Assembly: GCA_902520595.1 (NCBI GenBank)
Contig: CABYOM010000008.1
Span: 1-43,281 of the forward strand
Direction of reading: 5' to 3'
Source of the DNA: an uncultured Candidatus Poseidoniales archaeon
GTDB taxonomy: Archaea; Thermoplasmatota; Poseidoniia; Poseidoniales; Poseidoniaceae
DNA: 43,281 nt
Of this stretch, positions 24,934 through 31,821 are shown in pieces; within the stretch, counting starts at the first letter, position 1, and every line of letters starts with the position of its first letter. Under the pieces are notes generated by a model. It made no database searches. It was given only the letters and a program-made list of their open reading frames with translations, and was not told the origin of the DNA. A program made the position numbers and the translations under genes.

Positions 24934-26517
24934 GTGGAGTGTGGCTCGTGTAATGAACAGATTCCAGATGACAGTATATTTTGTCCTGAATGTGGTTCTC
25001 GGCAAGAAATGTCACGCGCTGGAGGTTTTACCAACCCGAGTTCAATCGGCCTCAGCGGACAAGAAGTATCTGGAGGTCGAAACTTTGGTGTTGTTTCAGG
25101 TGAAGCAATTCGTCAACAGCGAGACATGAACATCGGCAACACAAATGTCCCACCGGAAGTGCTTCAGCAAATCGCCATGGGTATCCAACAGCAACAGAAT
25201 ATTCCTCCCGGTCAGTACCCTCCTCAAAACATTCCGCCAAATCAAATGGGACAATTGCCCCCTCAGAATTTTCCTCCAAATCAGGTGAATCAATTTCCCC
25301 CGCAAGGAATGCAACAGCAACCACTGCAAGGAAATGTAACACCCCACATTCAATCTGATCGTCCACAGCAAGCACGAGGTCCGTCCCTTTCCAGCGGCGC
25401 AATACCTCAAAAACCTGTTAGCAATATATCGGCATCGACACCGGGTGGGACAGTTGTTGCAAATAATCCTGCAGCATCTCCAACCGATGCTATGGTCAAC
25501 CGGTTGGCTGAGGCAGAACGGGCAATGAAAGACGAACGCCGAAGTCAGTGGCTCAACATGAATCAAACTCCAGCTGGTAATGTACTGGCATCTCTTGGCG
25601 CTGATTTGCCTTCTCATCTTCGTGGAGCAGATGCATCAAATCCAGCCCAAGATGTTCTTGCAGGCGCTCTTGGACAATCTCAAGATGCTCCGAATGAAGC
25701 ACTCTTGCGCAGGATGTGTGAAGTAGCAGTTCGTCGTGTTGCTCGTAAGCGTGGTGTGGCAGTTGAAACACCTCAAGCGAAAGTTGAATCCGATATCCTC
25801 AATGTCAACGTCACCTATATTGATGACGGCCGTGTACTTGACACTCCTGAAGACCTTACTCAAGCATTCCAACACGCGATCGAAACCGAGGTCGCTTTGA
25901 AGGGCTTTGATCTCACCACTGAACTCAAGTTATTCCGTTCTAAAGACGGTGAGGTCCAGAATCTCGATGGCAGTGATTCAGCAGACGATGGCGTTGAGAT
26001 GTTTGCTTGTGAAATCTGTGATGGACTTGTCAAAGAGACCGACAACGAATGCCCTCACTGTGGAGCAATTTTCGAAGATGATATCGAGGAGGTTGTCGAA
26101 CCTCAACGTCGTGGCCCACCTAAGCGCGGCGGTCCACCAAAGCGTAGCGGTCCACCCGGTCCTTCCAAAGGCGGTCCTCCAAAGAAGAGCGGCCCACCCG
26201 GTCCTTCCAAAGGCGGTCCTCCAAAGAAGAGCGGTCCACCCGGTCCATCAAAGGGCGGTCCTCCAAAGAAGAGCGGCCCACCTGGTCCATCAAGGGGAGG
26301 TCCTCCAAAGAAGAGTGGTCCACCTGGTCCATCAAAGGGAGGTCCTCCAAAGAAGAGAGGTCCACCTGGTCCATCCAAAGGCGGTCCTCCAAAGACGAGC
26401 GGTCCACCCGGTCCATCCAAAGGCGGTCCTCCAAAGAAGAGCGGCCCACCCGGTCCATCCAAAAGGGGTCCTCCAAAAGGCGGACCATCTGGACCTAAGA
26501 GAGGCCCACCTCGTTGA
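24934..26517 (+). CDS. Double zinc-ribbon protein with Pro/Gly/Lys tandem repeats
   Basis: I recognise no named family. The 527-residue product opens with a zinc ribbon (CGSCNEQIPDDSIFCPECG). A Gln/Pro/Asn-rich region follows to about 170, then an alpha-beta region about 250-350 (RRMCEVAVRRVARKRGV, ILNVNVTYIDDGRVLDT). A second zinc ribbon comes next (CEICDGLVKETDNECPHCG, about 358-377), then a basic tail of eight 14-residue repeats, GGPPKKSGPPGPSK, at residues 399-510. The start codon is GTG with GGGGTGG upstream. A large helicase gene follows after 16 bases, so the proteins probably act together, perhaps on nucleic acid through the zinc ribbons and cationic tail. Confidence 0.75.
   Translation: MECGSCNEQIPDDSIFCPECGSRQEMSRAGGFTNPSSIGLSGQEVSGGRNFGVVSGEAIRQQRDMNIGNTNVPPEVLQQIAMGIQQQQNIPPGQYPPQNIPPNQMGQLPPQNFPPNQVNQFPPQGMQQQPLQGNVTPHIQSDRPQQARGPSLSSGAIPQKPVSNISASTPGGTVVANNPAASPTDAMVNRLAEAERAMKDERRSQWLNMNQTPAGNVLASLGADLPSHLRGADASNPAQDVLAGALGQSQDAPNEALLRRMCEVAVRRVARKRGVAVETPQAKVESDILNVNVTYIDDGRVLDTPEDLTQAFQHAIETEVALKGFDLTTELKLFRSKDGEVQNLDGSDSADDGVEMFACEICDGLVKETDNECPHCGAIFEDDIEEVVEPQRRGPPKRGGPPKRSGPPGPSKGGPPKKSGPPGPSKGGPPKKSGPPGPSKGGPPKKSGPPGPSRGGPPKKSGPPGPSKGGPPKKRGPPGPSKGGPPKTSGPPGPSKGGPPKKSGPPGPSKRGPPKGGPSGPKRGPPR
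26128..26463 (+). repeat. Eight 42-bp in-frame tandem repeats
   Basis: Eight consecutive units each encode GGPPKxSGPPGPSK with few changes (KR, KT, R for K). Third-position differences are scattered among units, so the array is not freshly expanded, but neighbouring units are very alike. The phase is strictly kept at 42 bp. It encodes an extended cationic Pro/Gly-rich tail of the zinc-ribbon protein. It has no spacers and is not CRISPR. Confidence 0.95.
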
Positions 26518-26533: not shown

Positions 26534-29317
26534 TTGACAGAATTACCTGATTTTGGAAACATTCGTTTCGCAGGAACATTACGTCCATCTCAAGAGGCTG
26601 CAAGTTCAATTATTCGACCTCAACTTGATTCAGGGAAGAGCCGATTGCATATTGTTGCCCCACCTGGATCTGGAAAAACAGTCCTTGGGCTCTATGTTTG
26701 GTCAGATCTCGTTCGAAAACCCGCTCTCGTTCTGTCTCCAAATTCTGCGATACAAGCTCAATGGGCGGCAAGAACCTCTCTTTTTGATTTGGATGGAAAA
26801 GATGAATTTATCAGTACAGACCCTGAAAAACCAGGGTTACTCACTTCATTGACTTATCAATCAGTCACCATGCCTCGGAAGGGAGGAGAAGACCTTGACG
26901 AAGCCGCCATAGAGTTGTGGATTGAGAAACTTATACAAAAAGAAGAAGCCTCAAACCACGAAGAAGCATTGGCTTGGCTCGAAGACTTAGAACAAAAAAA
27001 TGACGAGTATTATACCAAACGTCTCTCGACGTATAGGAAAAAAGTGAGGGATGAATTTGCAGAGCATGGAAATGCATTATGGACATTACACGAAAGTGCA
27101 AAAGCGAATCTTATTCGGCTTCAAAAGATTGGAATTGGTCTCATCATATTGGATGAATGCCACCACTTAATGCACCATTGGGGACGGGTTCTTTCTGAAG
27201 TCAGAGAGATGTTTGACAATCCTGTTGTTCTCGGTTTAACTGCAACTCCTCCAGAAGGAGGTGGATTCAAAGAAGCCGATGTAGAACGCTATGAAGAATT
27301 CTTTGGACCAGTTGATTACAGTGTCCCTGTTCCTGCTTTAGTCCGTGCTTCAAACCTTTCACCCTACCAAGATTTGTGTTATTTTGTTCGGCCAGCGAGT
27401 CATGAGTTGCAGTATATCGCGGGTGTTGACGAAGAGTTTGAATCACTTCTTAGCGAATTACGGGAAACAAATTATGGTGCCGAGGCAGATCGAGTCCCTG
27501 ACCTTGACCGGTGGGTACAAAACCAATTGCGGGAGAGAAAGTCACCAAATGGAGAAACGCTTTCTTGGCGACAATATGAGCAAAGATATCCAGCATTTGC
27601 CGAAGACTCTCGTCGTTTTTTACAATTGAACCACAAGGACTTGCCAAACGATGTCCCTGAAATTTACATGAAGAAGAATGATGAATCCTTTACTCGAATT
27701 AGTATTTTAAGGAACGTACTTTCGCGTTATGTACGTCATGGTTTGCGCCGTTCCAAATCAAAAGAAGACCACGCTCTTGCTGAATCAGTTGTCGCCCGTT
27801 TGCGAATGCTCGGAGTTATGATTACTGAAACCGGTTCACGAGCATGCGCTTCACCTGTCGGGCGTGTAATGGCCTATGCTTCTGCTAAAACAGAAGCAGT
27901 GAATGAGATTATTTCAGTGGAAATGCAAACGCTTGGCAAAGATATTCGTGCAGTCATTGTTACTGATTATGAAAAAACCTCTGCGACAACTCTTGTTGAA
28001 GGAGTTCTGGATGAAGAAGCAGGAGGGGCAATCTCTGTTCTTCGCTCATTAGTCCATCATCCTGCTGGAGATTATTTAGACCCAATTTTGATGACAGGGA
28101 GTACCGTTTTGGTCGATGATGATTTGTATGAACCTTTTATCGCCAAAGCAGAACTTTGGGTCGCAGAGCGACAACTCGACATTCGACTTGATGGTCGCCC
28201 CCACCAGGGTTTCATGGAAATCCACGGCAAGGGCAAGGATTGGATTCCTCGATATTATTCTTTGATGATTACTGAATTTTTCCAAGAAGGTTTTACTCGT
28301 TGTTTAGTTGGAACTCGGGGATTACTTGGTGAAGGTTGGGATGCTTCCCGAATCAATGTTCTCGTGGATATGACTTCCGTAACAACCAGTGTAAGTATTA
28401 ACCAACTTCGTGGTCGTTCCATCCGTATAGACAAATTGTGGCCTGAGAAAGTAGCCAACAACTGGGACATCATCTGCATAGCCGAAGAATTTACCAAAGG
28501 TTTTGATGATTATGAGCGCTTCAAGGAAAAGCACAAGCAATTGTATGGAGTTTGTGATGACGGGACTATCGAGAAGGGAGTTGGTCACGTTCACGCTGCG
28601 TTCAATGACGTGCGTCCAGAAGGAATCAGCGAAGGCATGGCCCTCTTCAATGAAGATATGATGCGCCGTGCTCGTAATCGTGAACATGCCCGAGAGCTGT
28701 GGGGAATAGGCCAGCCATTTGGCACCGAAGCCCGACCTGCCCTCGAAGCCAAAGCACCTTCAGGATTTGCCCTCGGGTTTAAGTTCGGAAGTCAAAAACA
28801 AATGTGGACAGACACCTCACTCACCCTTGCGATTTCAAAAGCAATTGTGGGTGCATACAATGAACTGGGAGAGATGACAAAACACTGTTCTCCAAAGGGC
28901 GGAGAGCGAGGCGGTGGCTGGTTACGATATCATTTGCATCATGCGACTCCTGACGAGGCTGAATTGTTCAGTGAATCGCTTGAAGAGGTCCTTGGCACGC
29001 TTGAAAAAGCGCGTTATGTCGTGGCACGTTCGTCTCAATTTATGCAAGATACATGGGTGTCAAAGCTAATGCCAGAAGTCATCGCAAAGTACTTGAGAAA
29101 AGAAGTCAGTGTCATTCAAATGTATCATAAAGTTCCTTCAAAACTCGCTTCGAGTAAAGAGAGGGCGGAAGTTTTCCTCAAACACTGGTTCCAACACGTA
29201 GGTCCTGGGCACATCACATATATGCGCAATGATGAAGGAAAAGAACTGATGAACTCGATCTTGCAGAAAAGCCTCGGTCCACAAGTTGGCCTACACAAAA
29301 AGAGTGTCTACTTGTGA
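26534..29317 (+). CDS. Large SF2 DEAD/DEAH-type helicase
   Basis: The 927-residue product has a full SF2 motor: RPSQEAA (Q-like), APPGSGKTVLG (Walker A), LIILDECHHL (DECH box), GLTATPP (motif III) and LVGTRGLLGEGWDASRINVL (motif V). Motif VI is INQLRGRSIR. A long insertion of about 120 residues with charged helices (EEALAWLEDLEQKNDEYY) sits between motifs Ia and II. The C-terminal ~300 residues are unassigned. No nuclease motif was seen. The start is TTG at 26534 because the Q-like region and Walker A lie upstream of the first in-frame ATG. The stop abuts that of the convergent gene at 29318. DNA or RNA substrate is unknown. Confidence 0.85.
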   Translation: MTELPDFGNIRFAGTLRPSQEAASSIIRPQLDSGKSRLHIVAPPGSGKTVLGLYVWSDLVRKPALVLSPNSAIQAQWAARTSLFDLDGKDEFISTDPEKPGLLTSLTYQSVTMPRKGGEDLDEAAIELWIEKLIQKEEASNHEEALAWLEDLEQKNDEYYTKRLSTYRKKVRDEFAEHGNALWTLHESAKANLIRLQKIGIGLIILDECHHLMHHWGRVLSEVREMFDNPVVLGLTATPPEGGGFKEADVERYEEFFGPVDYSVPVPALVRASNLSPYQDLCYFVRPASHELQYIAGVDEEFESLLSELRETNYGAEADRVPDLDRWVQNQLRERKSPNGETLSWRQYEQRYPAFAEDSRRFLQLNHKDLPNDVPEIYMKKNDESFTRISILRNVLSRYVRHGLRRSKSKEDHALAESVVARLRMLGVMITETGSRACASPVGRVMAYASAKTEAVNEIISVEMQTLGKDIRAVIVTDYEKTSATTLVEGVLDEEAGGAISVLRSLVHHPAGDYLDPILMTGSTVLVDDDLYEPFIAKAELWVAERQLDIRLDGRPHQGFMEIHGKGKDWIPRYYSLMITEFFQEGFTRCLVGTRGLLGEGWDASRINVLVDMTSVTTSVSINQLRGRSIRIDKLWPEKVANNWDIICIAEEFTKGFDDYERFKEKHKQLYGVCDDGTIEKGVGHVHAAFNDVRPEGISEGMALFNEDMMRRARNREHARELWGIGQPFGTEARPALEAKAPSGFALGFKFGSQKQMWTDTSLTLAISKAIVGAYNELGEMTKHCSPKGGERGGGWLRYHLHHATPDEAELFSESLEEVLGTLEKARYVVARSSQFMQDTWVSKLMPEVIAKYLRKEVSVIQMYHKVPSKLASSKERAEVFLKHWFQHVGPGHITYMRNDEGKELMNSILQKSLGPQVGLHKKSVYL

Positions 29318-30373
29318 TCAATTAGAACACGATTCACATTGGAACGTTTTGCCTCTGTGAGAATCACAGAATCTTTTTCGGCAATCAAAGCAACGGAAAT
29401 CAAACGAGTCGACCGTGTTCGAACAGCCAGGATGGCCACATGTCTCATCAGATGATTGGGCTTTTGTTGTCGATGTGTTTTGACTACCCCAGAATCCTCC
29501 GCTGGGTTGAGATGGCTGGGAAGGTGCTGAATTGAAAGCGCTGGAAGAAGAAAGACCGAGCGTCTTCAAAACGTGGTCATTGGCAAAGAATTCCTCTGTT
29601 TCTCTTTGCGACATGATTCCGTATGAGAGGGCATGAGCCTTTGCTTCTTTAACATCGTCAAATCCACGATTATTCAACCCCATACGACCGATGATACTGT
29701 CGTAATTTCGAATCCGACTTGCAGTCATGTTACCGTCTTTCCATCGCTTTCGACGCCGAGGATTCGACGGCCTTACCTGATTGAATGCAGGGATATTTTG
29801 CTGAGATGGCAACGTCGGGTATGATGATTGAGTTGGTGTGATTTGCTTCCCTTTCTGCCCGGTTAATTGGGTGCGAAAATTCCCCATTCGTGCATAGAGG
29901 CCGCCAGTCGCAACAGTACTGCCTTTTGCCCCCATCATCAAAGCCACGATTAAACCGAGAGTAGCTAAAATCGCGAAGAAACCAGAACAGCAGTAATACA
30001 AGTAAATATCAGAGGTTTGCGACTCAAATGAATAACTGGAAGGGTCATCAGTCGGGAAGTAAATTTGAATATCTGAGCCAATTGGGAATGCAGCCATAAT
30101 TTGAGATCTACATGACTCACTGCTTTCCATAGAACCTGTTGTAGTGCCCGTGTATTCTTTCTCTACACTACCATCCTCGGTCGCTGCATAACGAAATTCA
30201 ATGTTAGCCGTGCACGTGTAATAACCTGAATAATATTCATCATAGGTTGTTTCAGAGGTTATAGTTGCATCTGTTGAAACATATTCAGTATCAGATGAAC
30301 CCGCCGCAGCGAAGACAAAAAGTCCTGATAGGAGTGTTGAAATTATGAAAATTACGATGCCAAATTTATTCAT
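29318..30373 (-). CDS. Membrane protein with C-terminal AN1-like zinc finger
   Basis: The 351-residue product has an N-terminal hydrophobic segment (FGIVIFIISTLLSGLFVFAAA). A ~95-residue Tyr/Ser/Thr-rich extracytoplasmic domain follows, in which a YTCTANIEFRY ... GSDIQIYFPTDDPSSYSFE layout resembles DUF3592 proteins. Next come a second membrane segment (GFFAILATLGLIVALMMG) and a basic linker. The C-terminal cysteine-rich domain has C-x4-C-x9-C-x2-C-x4-C-x2-H and a final C-x2-C, close to an AN1 zinc finger. ATG 30373 is preceded by GGTG; ATG 30412 would add 13 residues. A structured leader lies upstream. The role is unknown; the zinc finger should be cytoplasmic. Confidence 0.72.
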   Translation of the reverse strand: MNKFGIVIFIISTLLSGLFVFAAAGSSDTEYVSTDATITSETTYDEYYSGYYTCTANIEFRYAATEDGSVEKEYTGTTTGSMESSESCRSQIMAAFPIGSDIQIYFPTDDPSSYSFESQTSDIYLYYCCSGFFAILATLGLIVALMMGAKGSTVATGGLYARMGNFRTQLTGQKGKQITPTQSSYPTLPSQQNIPAFNQVRPSNPRRRKRWKDGNMTASRIRNYDSIIGRMGLNNRGFDDVKEAKAHALSYGIMSQRETEEFFANDHVLKTLGLSSSSAFNSAPSQPSQPSGGFWGSQNTSTTKAQSSDETCGHPGCSNTVDSFDFRCFDCRKRFCDSHRGKTFQCESCSN

Positions 30374-30384
30374 TTTAACACCGA

Positions 30385-30456
30385 TTAAGTTTGCTGTTGG
30401 CGCTGTTCCCATGCGCCAACAGCGAGTGGTTTCATACGCACGTGTGCAGCCGTCAT
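30385..30456 (-). CDS. Possible 23-residue upstream ORF in the leader
   Basis: An ATG at 30456, preceded by GGAG, opens 23 codons (starting MTAAHVRMKPLAVGAW) that read through the 11-bp hairpin and stop 12 bases before the ATG of the main gene. It might couple translation to leader folding. The coding evidence is only the start, spacing and stop; it may be fortuitous. Confidence 0.25.
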   Translation of the reverse strand: MTAAHVRMKPLAVGAWEQRQQQT

Positions 30457-30479
30457 TGCCGAAGCTCCGGTGGGAACAG
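30393..30479 (-). promoter_or_regulatory. Structured 5' leader: hairpin with loop complementary to upstream segment
   Basis: An 11-bp perfect stem (30393-30403 with 30413-30423, GCTGTTGGCGC/GCGCCAACAGC) encloses a 9-base loop. The loop plus one arm base (30403-30411) is perfectly complementary over 9 bases to 30471-30479, upstream in the minus-strand transcript. A pseudoknot or two alternative folds could form just before the ribosome-binding site of the AN1-like gene. Transcription from the TATA box at 30498-30505 would start close to the 9-base segment, so whether it is fully transcribed is uncertain. Confidence 0.5.
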
Positions 30480-30497
30480 TTACAACTCAGTAAGGCG

Positions 30498-30505
30498 ATA
30501 TATAA
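30498..30505 (-). promoter_or_regulatory. TATA box of the AN1-like membrane protein gene
   Basis: Minus-strand GATTATATATCG is one of the best TATA matches in the window. It predicts a start near 30475, about 100 bases before the ATG at 30373. It lies just after the priS stop on the same strand, so the gene is likely transcribed separately from sucCD-priS. Confidence 0.6.
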
Positions 30506-30522
30506 TCATTGGTGATTGAAAA

Positions 30523-31821
30523 CTATTCCCTGCGTACTATTCTCATCGAGGGTTCTTGAGTCCCTGAAGTGTCCTTCTCATCCATCTTTATCTCCATACC
30601 CATTCGTTTTGAAAGTTCTAAGTGGGCTAAGGACCAAGGCCATTTGCACGAATCGTTCGTCTCTTGTGCGAGTACATTGATTGGGATCAACTCACTGTCC
30701 CAGCCACTGTTTTCGACGAGTTGACCTGAGATGCGAATCCAAGCATGGTCTCTTTGTTTCAGTTCATGCGCTAAATGAGAAAAGCCATTTTTCTTGGCCA
30801 TTTTGGCGAGATATTCACGCGGCATTGCTCGAGGGACTAACATCAACGTACGTTGCCCATCCGTCCAAAATACAGTTGAGCCTAATTGAGCATCTTTACA
30901 GAGTTTGAGTGCCTTTTCAACTGCCTTTTTTGGTTCCCCCCAACTGCGTGGCAGCCATTCAATCAAGGCTGAACGATTCTTTGTTCCAGGGACATGCGTG
31001 CTCACTTCAAGACTGGTCTGCTGCTGAGGAATCATCTCTATGTTTGCCTTTTTTCGAGTGAACAGAGATTTTTTTCTTGCGGCTTTTTTTGGCATTTTGA
31101 GGGATTGCGGATGACGATTGAGGTCATTCATCCATTCGTTAAACGGCCGATGAAGTTGTTCAATGGTAATAATCGAACAAATCCACCCTGTTTTTCCGTG
31201 AACAGTGCCGGGTACTCGTATGATTCGGCGAGTATCTGCCGTAATTTTTGTATCGATGTGGAGGCCGTCTGTAACGGCTCGTTGAAGCAGTTTCTTTCTT
31301 GAATCTCTCACTGTATCTTCACGAAGTTTTGGGTCAGGAATTTGGAATTTCTCTCTTTCGAGATCATGATAAAAAAGATGGAAACCTTTGCTACCTGAAA
31401 AGGTCACGTGGGAGAATGAATATTCTGATTTATCCTTCATCCAATCAAACATGCTCACAGCGTATTTACGAGCCAATTCCATATTTTTCTGGCAAAAAGG
31501 AGGAACATCAATATCAAAGACGACCAAATGATCGAGAAGTATTGGATGTGATGTTTCAGTATCATTGAGTCGAGGCAAATCGACTGGATTGAGCCAAGAA
31601 GAGGTTGAGACATAAACATCGGTTGGAACTGCTTTTCCTACTGCCTTGAGGAAGGTCACAGCATCACGTATTCTGCGAGGTGAAGAATACCAACGATTGT
31701 TCAATGTTCTCCACCGAAACTGATGTTGAGTCGGCTTTTTCATCCACGAAAAGTCAATATGAAAGTCCTTTGAATAGTGGTCTTCCAAGACAGAGGGGTC
31801 AAACGCTGACTCTTCTGCCAT
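30523..31821 (-). CDS. priS: DNA primase small (catalytic) subunit PriS, archaeo-eukaryotic primase family
   Basis: The 432-residue product has the primase catalytic signatures: LVVFDIDVPPF (Asp103 and Asp105), FSGSKGFHLFYHD (about 141-153) and HIDTKITADTRRIIRVPGTVHGKTG in positions 189-212, supplying the third acidic residue and the basic nucleotide-binding residues. Within its family this fits PriS, which with PriL makes primers for replication. The C-terminal ~200 residues are poorly conserved and contain a basic Lys-rich linker near 245-262. The gene lies 30 bases after sucD in the same direction, an unusual partner. No PriL gene is in the window. Confidence 0.88.
   Translation of the reverse strand: MAEESAFDPSVLEDHYSKDFHIDFSWMKKPTQHQFRWRTLNNRWYSSPRRIRDAVTFLKAVGKAVPTDVYVSTSSWLNPVDLPRLNDTETSHPILLDHLVVFDIDVPPFCQKNMELARKYAVSMFDWMKDKSEYSFSHVTFSGSKGFHLFYHDLEREKFQIPDPKLREDTVRDSRKKLLQRAVTDGLHIDTKITADTRRIIRVPGTVHGKTGWICSIITIEQLHRPFNEWMNDLNRHPQSLKMPKKAARKKSLFTRKKANIEMIPQQQTSLEVSTHVPGTKNRSALIEWLPRSWGEPKKAVEKALKLCKDAQLGSTVFWTDGQRTLMLVPRAMPREYLAKMAKKNGFSHLAHELKQRDHAWIRISGQLVENSGWDSELIPINVLAQETNDSCKWPWSLAHLELSKRMGMEIKMDEKDTSGTQEPSMRIVRRE

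Follow-up and report, generated by a model that had tools for sequence, protein, structure and literature searches.

A conserved pseudoknotted RNA with a predicted kink-turn, genetically linked to a divergent second primase in Poseidoniales

L7Ae is a kink-turn-binding protein that is universal in archaea. It binds the kink-turns of archaeal non-coding RNAs, and where kink-turns lie in mRNA leaders translation is repressed by L7Ae, as described in excerpts of two studies (PMC5539422; PMC6298567). Such L7Ae-responsive leaders resemble the RNA considered here in being archaeal 5' leaders with a 3-nt bulge and tandem G-A pairs near the translation start; it differs from the excerpted examples (PMC5539422; PMC6298567) in that a tetraloop closes the C helix of its kink-turn, the Shine-Dalgarno (SD) site lies outside the kink-turn, and the kink-turn is one element of a larger RNA that has a pseudoknot and is linked to a primase gene.

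Several other systems are close in arrangement. Retrons and other pairings of a polymerase with a non-coding RNA (PMC12887533; PMC12405507, both in excerpt) are commonly described as having a nucleic-acid polymerase, a dedicated structured RNA before a variable third gene, and a patchy distribution. The present locus shares these traits, but its polymerase-type gene encodes a PriS-family, i.e. archaeo-eukaryotic, primase and not a reverse transcriptase, and no template or guide segment is obvious in the RNA. Type III toxin-antitoxin systems such as ToxIN, by general account, likewise place a pseudoknotted RNA just before a small protein gene, whereas here there are no repeats and no ToxN-like domain, and the primase is a constant partner. 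Orphan riboswitch candidates with pseudoknots are also compact, highly conserved and located at mRNA 5' ends; in contrast, the present RNA occurs in a single gene neighbourhood within one archaeal phylum, and for it no clue to a ligand, no clear expression platform and no Rfam match was found. Compared by eye with box C/D sRNAs, it has a single kink-turn and neither a guide nor a second motif. Tan1, an abundant non-coding RNA of 229 nt from Ca. Thalassoarchaea, was reported as of unknown nature in the same archaeal order (PMC5069720, in excerpt); by its description, the only basis of comparison, it may or may not overlap this RNA. Searches of the open-licence PubMed Central literature on primases with non-coding RNAs, kink-turn leaders and Poseidoniales RNAs turned up no description of the RNA, nor of any structured RNA dedicated to a primase of the archaeo-eukaryotic kind. 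To our knowledge no such RNA is known, and no system we are aware of pairs a primase gene so strictly with a structured RNA of its own.

Planktonic Poseidoniales have been described as the most abundant archaea of the ocean surface and are without cultured representatives (PMC6461757, in excerpt). In the window, i.e. the whole analysed stretch of 43,281 bases, the RNA is encoded on the minus strand; a primase-like gene (31821-30523) precedes it, and a gene for a 351-aa protein (30373-29318) follows. The neighbourhood comprises:

30523-31821, minus strand: PriS2 (a name coined in this analysis), predicted divergent second primase small subunit with FDID, SGSKGFH and DTRRIIR..HGKTG motifs (motifs, profiles, predicted fold)
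30498-30506, minus strand: TATA-like box ATTATATAT, conserved in 13 leaders
30393-30477, minus strand: conserved structured RNA, 85 nt in the window genome, predicted 5' end at about 30477
30379-30382, minus strand: SD-like GGTG before the ATG at 30373; GG invariant, GGTG in 11 of 13 leaders
29318-30373, minus strand: YN/AN1-like gene, 351 aa, with N-terminal membrane segment, YN core and AN1-like zinc finger
26534-29317, plus strand: convergent superfamily-2 XPB-like helicase, a frequent neighbour of the cassette in both families

Architecture and covariation of the RNA

The 3' part of the RNA is a hairpin, GCTGTTGGCGC-ATGGGAACA-GCGCCAACAGC (30423-30393), of 11 perfect pairs with a 9-nt loop, the only perfect hairpin of at least 11 bp in a scan of both strands of the 43,281-base window. 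Its loop with one arm base, TGGGAACAG (30411-30403), is the perfect complement of CTGTTCCCA upstream on the same strand (30479-30471). Both the stem and its upstream loop complement had been claimed in a preliminary description of this DNA, and they are exact as claimed; 0/3000 dinucleotide shuffles of the 149-nt intergenic region gave an 11-bp hairpin, and 0/3000 gave even an 8-bp one whose loop has an 8-nt complement upstream. The following parts are distinguished, all on the minus strand:

30471-30477: pseudoknot 5' strand GUUCCCA, partner 30405-30411 (compensatory changes; loop-swap control on loci chosen by PriS2 alone)
30450-30470: predicted kink-turn CCG-GA-GC(UUCG)GC-AAU-GA-CGG with covarying flanking helices, missed in the preliminary description; NC helix CCG/CGG, C helix GC capped by UUCG, tandem GA 30467-30466 and 30454-30453, bulge AAU 30457-30455
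30438-30447: hairpin P2, GCAC-AC-GUGC, length differing by lineage; two of four pairs changed on both sides (alignment A4)
30424-30437: joining segment J2/3, before P3, conserved in part (by eye)
30393-30423: P3, the 11-bp hairpin with 9-nt loop (window scan, shuffles, covariation)
30405-30411: pseudoknot 3' strand UGGGAAC, within the P3 loop (compensatory changes; loop-swap control)

Relatives were gathered by protein homology of the flanking genes, the RNA not being used. In 13 distinct orthologous leaders, whose downstream proteins share 36-89% identity, a block of 85 nt is kept far better than the flanking promoter and spacer. Across 10 distinct rows, the pseudoknot, the small hairpins and P3 have 250 of 250 cells paired, with six pairs doubly changed, and slid controls have 27-41% of cells paired. 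For example, GUUCCCA/UGGGAAC is replaced by GUUUCCA/UGGAAAC in four leaders (L007, L008, L034, L038) and by GUCCCUA/UGGGGAC in L039. A more diverse set, 40 of 62 sequences picked with a pseudoknot filter and after removal of the minus-strand artefacts L004 and L091, has 91.9% of 945 cells paired (32-42% when slid) and 140 double-change cells (42 ± 5 in shuffles). The loop-swap control was free of this filter: 122 distinct 3' flanks were taken solely by the end of the PriS2 gene, and the loop of the strongest hairpin was tested. In 105 of the 122 flanks that loop has a complement of at least 6 nt where one would be expected upstream; with loops exchanged among genomes the share is about 28%. 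Native complements fall below 5 nt in eight flanks, four of which are loci of the second family (f37, see below) where another hairpin was chosen. The pairing of the loop with the upstream segment, suggested earlier as a pseudoknot, is thus backed by compensatory changes in related leaders, and the contrary outcome named with it, orthologous leaders lacking such changes, is contradicted.

The segment directly after the first pseudoknot strand, between the two strands, is a predicted standard kink-turn by its sequence pattern and its covarying flanking helices. RNAs were parsed with a pattern that demanded a GA..TGA kink-turn and a pseudoknot, so that evidence comes from features outside the pattern only; L194, L213 and L234 were left out of 113 rows as chance matches, giving 110 RNAs, in two of which (L010, L066) the pseudoknot parse is doubtful. 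The pair 4n-4b, next to 3b:3n and outside the demands of the parser, is GC, TA, AT or CG in 31, 27, 26 and 23 of the 110 RNAs, i.e. Watson-Crick in 107/110, and the C and NC helices covary. C-helix caps vary across sub-types among UUCG, GAAA, UUAG and similar loops, and the bulge is NNU. Earlier folds, with CCG/CGG as a small hairpin with a 6-nt loop or with GUUCC paired to GGAGC (RNAalifold), were given up; diverged sequences showed the kink-turn instead.

According to the excerpts of PMC5539422 and PMC6298567, a Watson-Crick 3b:3n pair impedes folding by ions alone, C:G at -1b:-1n promotes it, and all kink-turns analysed by those authors fold upon L7Ae. In the parsed RNAs 3b:3n is C:G in 84/110 and C:A in 24/110, and -1b:-1n is C:G in 107/110, in part imposed by the parser. 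The published ion-folding rules are undecided for these RNAs because 3b:3n is mostly C:G while -1b:-1n is C:G. Since every kink-turn analysed there folds on L7Ae, we infer that L7Ae would bind here too. Taken together, the aligned letters show a structured RNA of about 85-101 nt, with the 5' end pseudoknotted to the loop of the 3' hairpin and with a kink-turn and a variable hairpin.

A covariance model free of the pseudoknot found the RNA in more Poseidoniales, in four main sub-types and several rarer ones. At gathering score no Rfam 15 family matches it, the window having only a tRNA-Ser elsewhere; a search of the region up to E 10 gave chance-level matches only, and five diverged loci gave none. 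Outside Poseidoniales, the RNA model has no convincing match in a phylum-wide sample of 389 genomes (best E 0.006). Matches of the R2 model beyond the order (E 0.006-0.09) were taken as noise; the one in G496 is not at the PriS2 locus of that genome.

Promoter, ribosome-binding site and downstream gene

Over 110 distinct loci the A/T content peaks 26-28 nt before the conserved G with which the pseudoknot begins. A distance of about 26 nt separates the TATA box from the conserved RNA, which stops short of the SD site. From archaeal promoter spacing, transcription is predicted to start at about 30477 ± 3, and therefore the upstream pseudoknot strand is probably transcribed. The TATA box pointed out in the preliminary description (ATTATATAT, 30506-30498) is there, and its geometry fits a transcript starting at the first 9-mer; a start downstream of 30471, the case in which 30471-30479 would not be transcribed, has no support from this predicted start. 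The 23-codon upstream ORF that had been described as crossing the hairpin also exists in the window (MTAAHVRMKPLAVGAWEQRQQQT), its ATG being that of the kink-turn's AAUGA, but it is not conserved: of 13 leaders, three have a stop after seven codons and a fourth has a frameshift, and group B has UGUGAC at the position of its start and no ATG. A uORF peptide was rejected, the ORF being broken or frameshifted in 4/13 leaders.

The gene start at 30373 is supported by conservation. Pairing of the SD region with the leader is -10.7 kcal/mol for native and -10.3 ± 0.3 kcal/mol for swapped leaders (SE about 0.3, 107 loci), and SD sequestration was set aside for lack of a clear difference. The two-state control of the AN1-like membrane gene that had been suggested may still apply, although the ribosome-binding region pairs with its leader no better than swapped controls do. 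As regards a riboswitch-like expression platform, there is no signal of SD sequestration, and a T-run follows P3 in 8 of 11 group C loci. An intrinsic terminator of the upstream primase gene was also considered and dropped; a scan gave no terminator-like site, and the RNA in the window has no T-run after it.

Most lineages have the start of the gene no more than about 25 nt beyond P3, which leaves no space for another promoter, so that the RNA would be part of the small gene's mRNA and may be no more than a leader. Group C is different: a T-run comes after the RNA in 8 of 11 loci, RNA and gene are 149-157 nt apart where measured, and a 15-nt box before the gene, TGAAAGAYTATGTGC, is invariant in 11/11. 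Located about 60 nt beyond the RNA (L021, L025, L073, L090 and relatives), this box is similar to the TATA region that precedes the RNA; by that similarity it may be a second promoter, or else a further RNA element.

The proteins encoded downstream vary. The window protein has a membrane segment and an AN1-like finger (zf-AN1 E 0.0011, below the cut-off), others have amphipathic starts of MGFFD type, and those of genus g18 have 86-125 aa and no finger. A short YN core (in the window NYDSIIGRMGL...EFFANDHVLKTLGL) is weakly common to the two Poseidoniales groups compared (hhalign E 0.016). The predicted structure of the 351-aa protein has a mean pLDDT of 61 and no significant PDB match, the best being at E 0.0057 and OB-fold matches coming next (E 0.014 and above). 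The downstream YN protein of locus L182 (89 aa) has a weak likeness to the first three-helix domain of RecX (E 0.0011, below the cut-off). In a single case, G022, the YN/AN1 gene is found between sucD and the helicase without PriS2 and without the RNA; in G019 and G184 sucD is followed directly by the convergent helicase. The helicase was rejected as a strict partner, being present in 177/318 genomes, some of them without PriS2. Next to it, at 24934-26517 on the plus strand, is a gene for a zinc-ribbon protein with a long C-terminal GPPKKSGPPGPSKG repeat, possibly disordered.

The second primase and its linkage with the RNA

Canonical archaeal PriS and PriS2 have in common the fold and the DxD, SGxKGFH and DTRRIIR..HG.TG motifs, but PriS2 is an additional gene in several genomes that also have canonical PriS, and it scores far under NCBI cut-offs. 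The window gene reaches 24.4 bits with the Pfam primase model (cut-off 26.8), and PriS2 reaches 40.2 bits with the NCBI PriS equivalog model (cut-off 143.5), which excludes it from canonical PriS. A primase-family match was obtained in 18/18 genomes tested, and VFDID, SG.KGFH and DTRRIIR.P..HG.TG are invariant in 18/18 aligned PriS2. The predicted fold (mean pLDDT 84) has archaeal PriS structures as best match (E 6e-8). Two primase genes are present in G003, G093, G169, G132 and G040, the canonical one at 50.6-57.8 bits and the RNA-adjacent one at 25-38 bits. By these profiles and motifs, the gene upstream of the RNA is a second, divergent primase gene and not the housekeeping PriS. The window gene (30523-31821, minus strand) would be annotated as replicative PriS; it is an accessory PriS-like gene in 138/318 Poseidoniales genomes. 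A viral origin was considered and rejected: the PriS2 profile had 0 matches in viral contigs and none in phage records. Two DNA patterns searched against the viral contigs matched two contigs each. The defence database searched holds no PriS2 match.

The RNA and PriS2 are strictly linked. PriS2 was detected in 138 of 318 Poseidoniales genomes, and 115 genomes have both RNA and PriS2, one the RNA only, 23 PriS2 only and 179 neither; these genomes are related and many are incomplete, and a Fisher test of the counts ignores shared ancestry. RNA presence was here taken at E up to 1e-6 (116 genomes); E up to 0.1 gives 126. In the single RNA-only genome a fragment upstream, at the contig edge, matches PriS2 (E 1.3e-6). 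Ten of the 23 PriS2-only loci were read with their flanks. Six are intact at the primase end and in the flank (G083, G159, G172, G184, G188, G190), and a diverged RNA is seen by eye in 6/6; the other four (G290, G191, G156, G161) are cut or broken before the primase end. In the remaining PriS2-only genomes many matches, by their coordinates, are at contig edges or fragmentary. The RNA follows PriS2, not the AN1-like gene, in its distribution, and at least in the cases of G022, G019 and G184 the two are gained and lost together.

A second lineage has the same arrangement. With the PriS2 profile a single genome from a different family (f37) was identified, and six PriS2 genes of genus g121 were then obtained from its relatives, next to weak matches that resemble canonical PriS. 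In 6/6 of these loci the architecture between the PriS2 stop and the small gene is the same, with unrelated pseudoknot letters (CACUCC/GGAGUG): the block has a kink-turn, GA-UUCC(UUCG)GGAA-GAU-GA, and a hairpin whose 7-nt loop bears the second pseudoknot strand. The pseudoknot letters are invariant and so are backed within f37 by recurrence only; one C-helix pair and one P3 pair are changed on both sides. The architecture arose in 1/5000 shuffles of the f37 intergenic region and is found nowhere else in the six loci, a result to be weighed with the fact that the f37 RNA was found by seeking the known architecture. The descriptor used requires a C helix of at least 3 bp and misses the window's own RNA (2 bp). 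Profile comparison detects no relation between the f37 downstream protein and the YN family, and its gene has no Pfam match above chance. This post-RNA gene (L278-L283) encodes 140-144 aa, with the start MG[LI]F.GLLG and a conserved KG.L...GL..D....W.A.N.

Possible roles of the RNA

We favour the reading, at a probability of about 0.5, in which the RNA is a partner within the PriS2 cassette and is produced as the third gene's 5' leader. The cassette would have the order PriS2, RNA, small protein gene, the RNA being the RNA element of an accessory cassette. Transcription would most likely begin at the first pseudoknot strand and continue into the small gene in most lineages; L7Ae would clamp the kink-turn and the pseudoknot would fix the fold. 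The resulting RNA particle may act with or on PriS2, presumably in contact with it, and the small protein may be a third component. The RNA would work as RNA, after a presumed release from the mRNA. Genetic linkage does not prove a physical partnership of RNA and PriS2.

The principal alternative, somewhat less probable though it may hold together with the favoured one, is a purely cis-acting leader, in which the RNA only controls translation of the small gene (termination in groups B/C) by folding near the ribosome-binding site in response to L7Ae, PriS2, the product of the gene itself or a metabolite. The placement of the RNA, which starts some 26 nt downstream of a TATA box and in most lineages ends just ahead of the start codon, fits this, as do the repression of translation by archaeal L7Ae through leader kink-turns (excerpts of PMC5539422 and PMC6298567) and the YN core weakly common to downstream proteins of two Poseidoniales groups (hhalign E 0.016). 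Against a pure leader stand the pairing of the ribosome-binding region (-10.7 vs. -10.3 ± 0.3 kcal/mol with swapped leaders), the unrelated downstream protein of f37 where PriS2 and RNA persist, the gene without RNA in G022, the 149-157 nt that part RNA and gene in group C where measured, and the conservation of the RNA exceeding that of the protein. An action with PriS2 is preferred.

Less can be said for the remaining explanations. A type III toxin-antitoxin-like scheme, in which the pseudoknotted RNA is an antitoxin that silences a small, fast-evolving YN protein, is improbable: the order of promoter, pseudoknotted RNA, T-run (groups B/C) and small gene resembles ToxI-ToxN as generally known, and the distribution is patchy with divergent small proteins, but each locus read has a single RNA copy and no tandem repeats, the proteins scanned have no ToxN-like domain, and PriS2, always present, has no role in the scheme. 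The preliminary description had also offered the two 9-mers as inverted DNA sites for a transcription regulator, and one copy does overlap the predicted start site. That idea has very little chance of being right, since the letters covary in a variety of ways from lineage to lineage, like paired bases and unlike a fixed binding site of a protein, and it does not account for the compensatory changes seen also in P2, in P3 and in the helices of the kink-turn. Attenuation through the upstream ORF across the hairpin can be given hardly any credence: the 23-codon ORF is present in the window but stops after seven codons in 3/13 leaders, is frameshifted in another and has no ATG in group B (UGUGAC).

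An extension of the favoured partnership with PriS2, speculative and rather unlikely in its full form, would be a primase-based counterpart of retrons. RNA, L7Ae and PriS2 would form a particle, with the RNA used by PriS2 or restraining it, and the third protein in its varied forms, whether membrane-anchored, zinc-finger or amphipathic, would be the effector of an accessory, possibly antiviral, cassette of planktonic archaea.

A conserved RNA linked to a second primase in two lineages offers a specific, testable entry to what may be an RNA-protein module. Should it prove to be only a leader, it would represent a class of archaeal regulatory RNA with unusually strong structural evidence.
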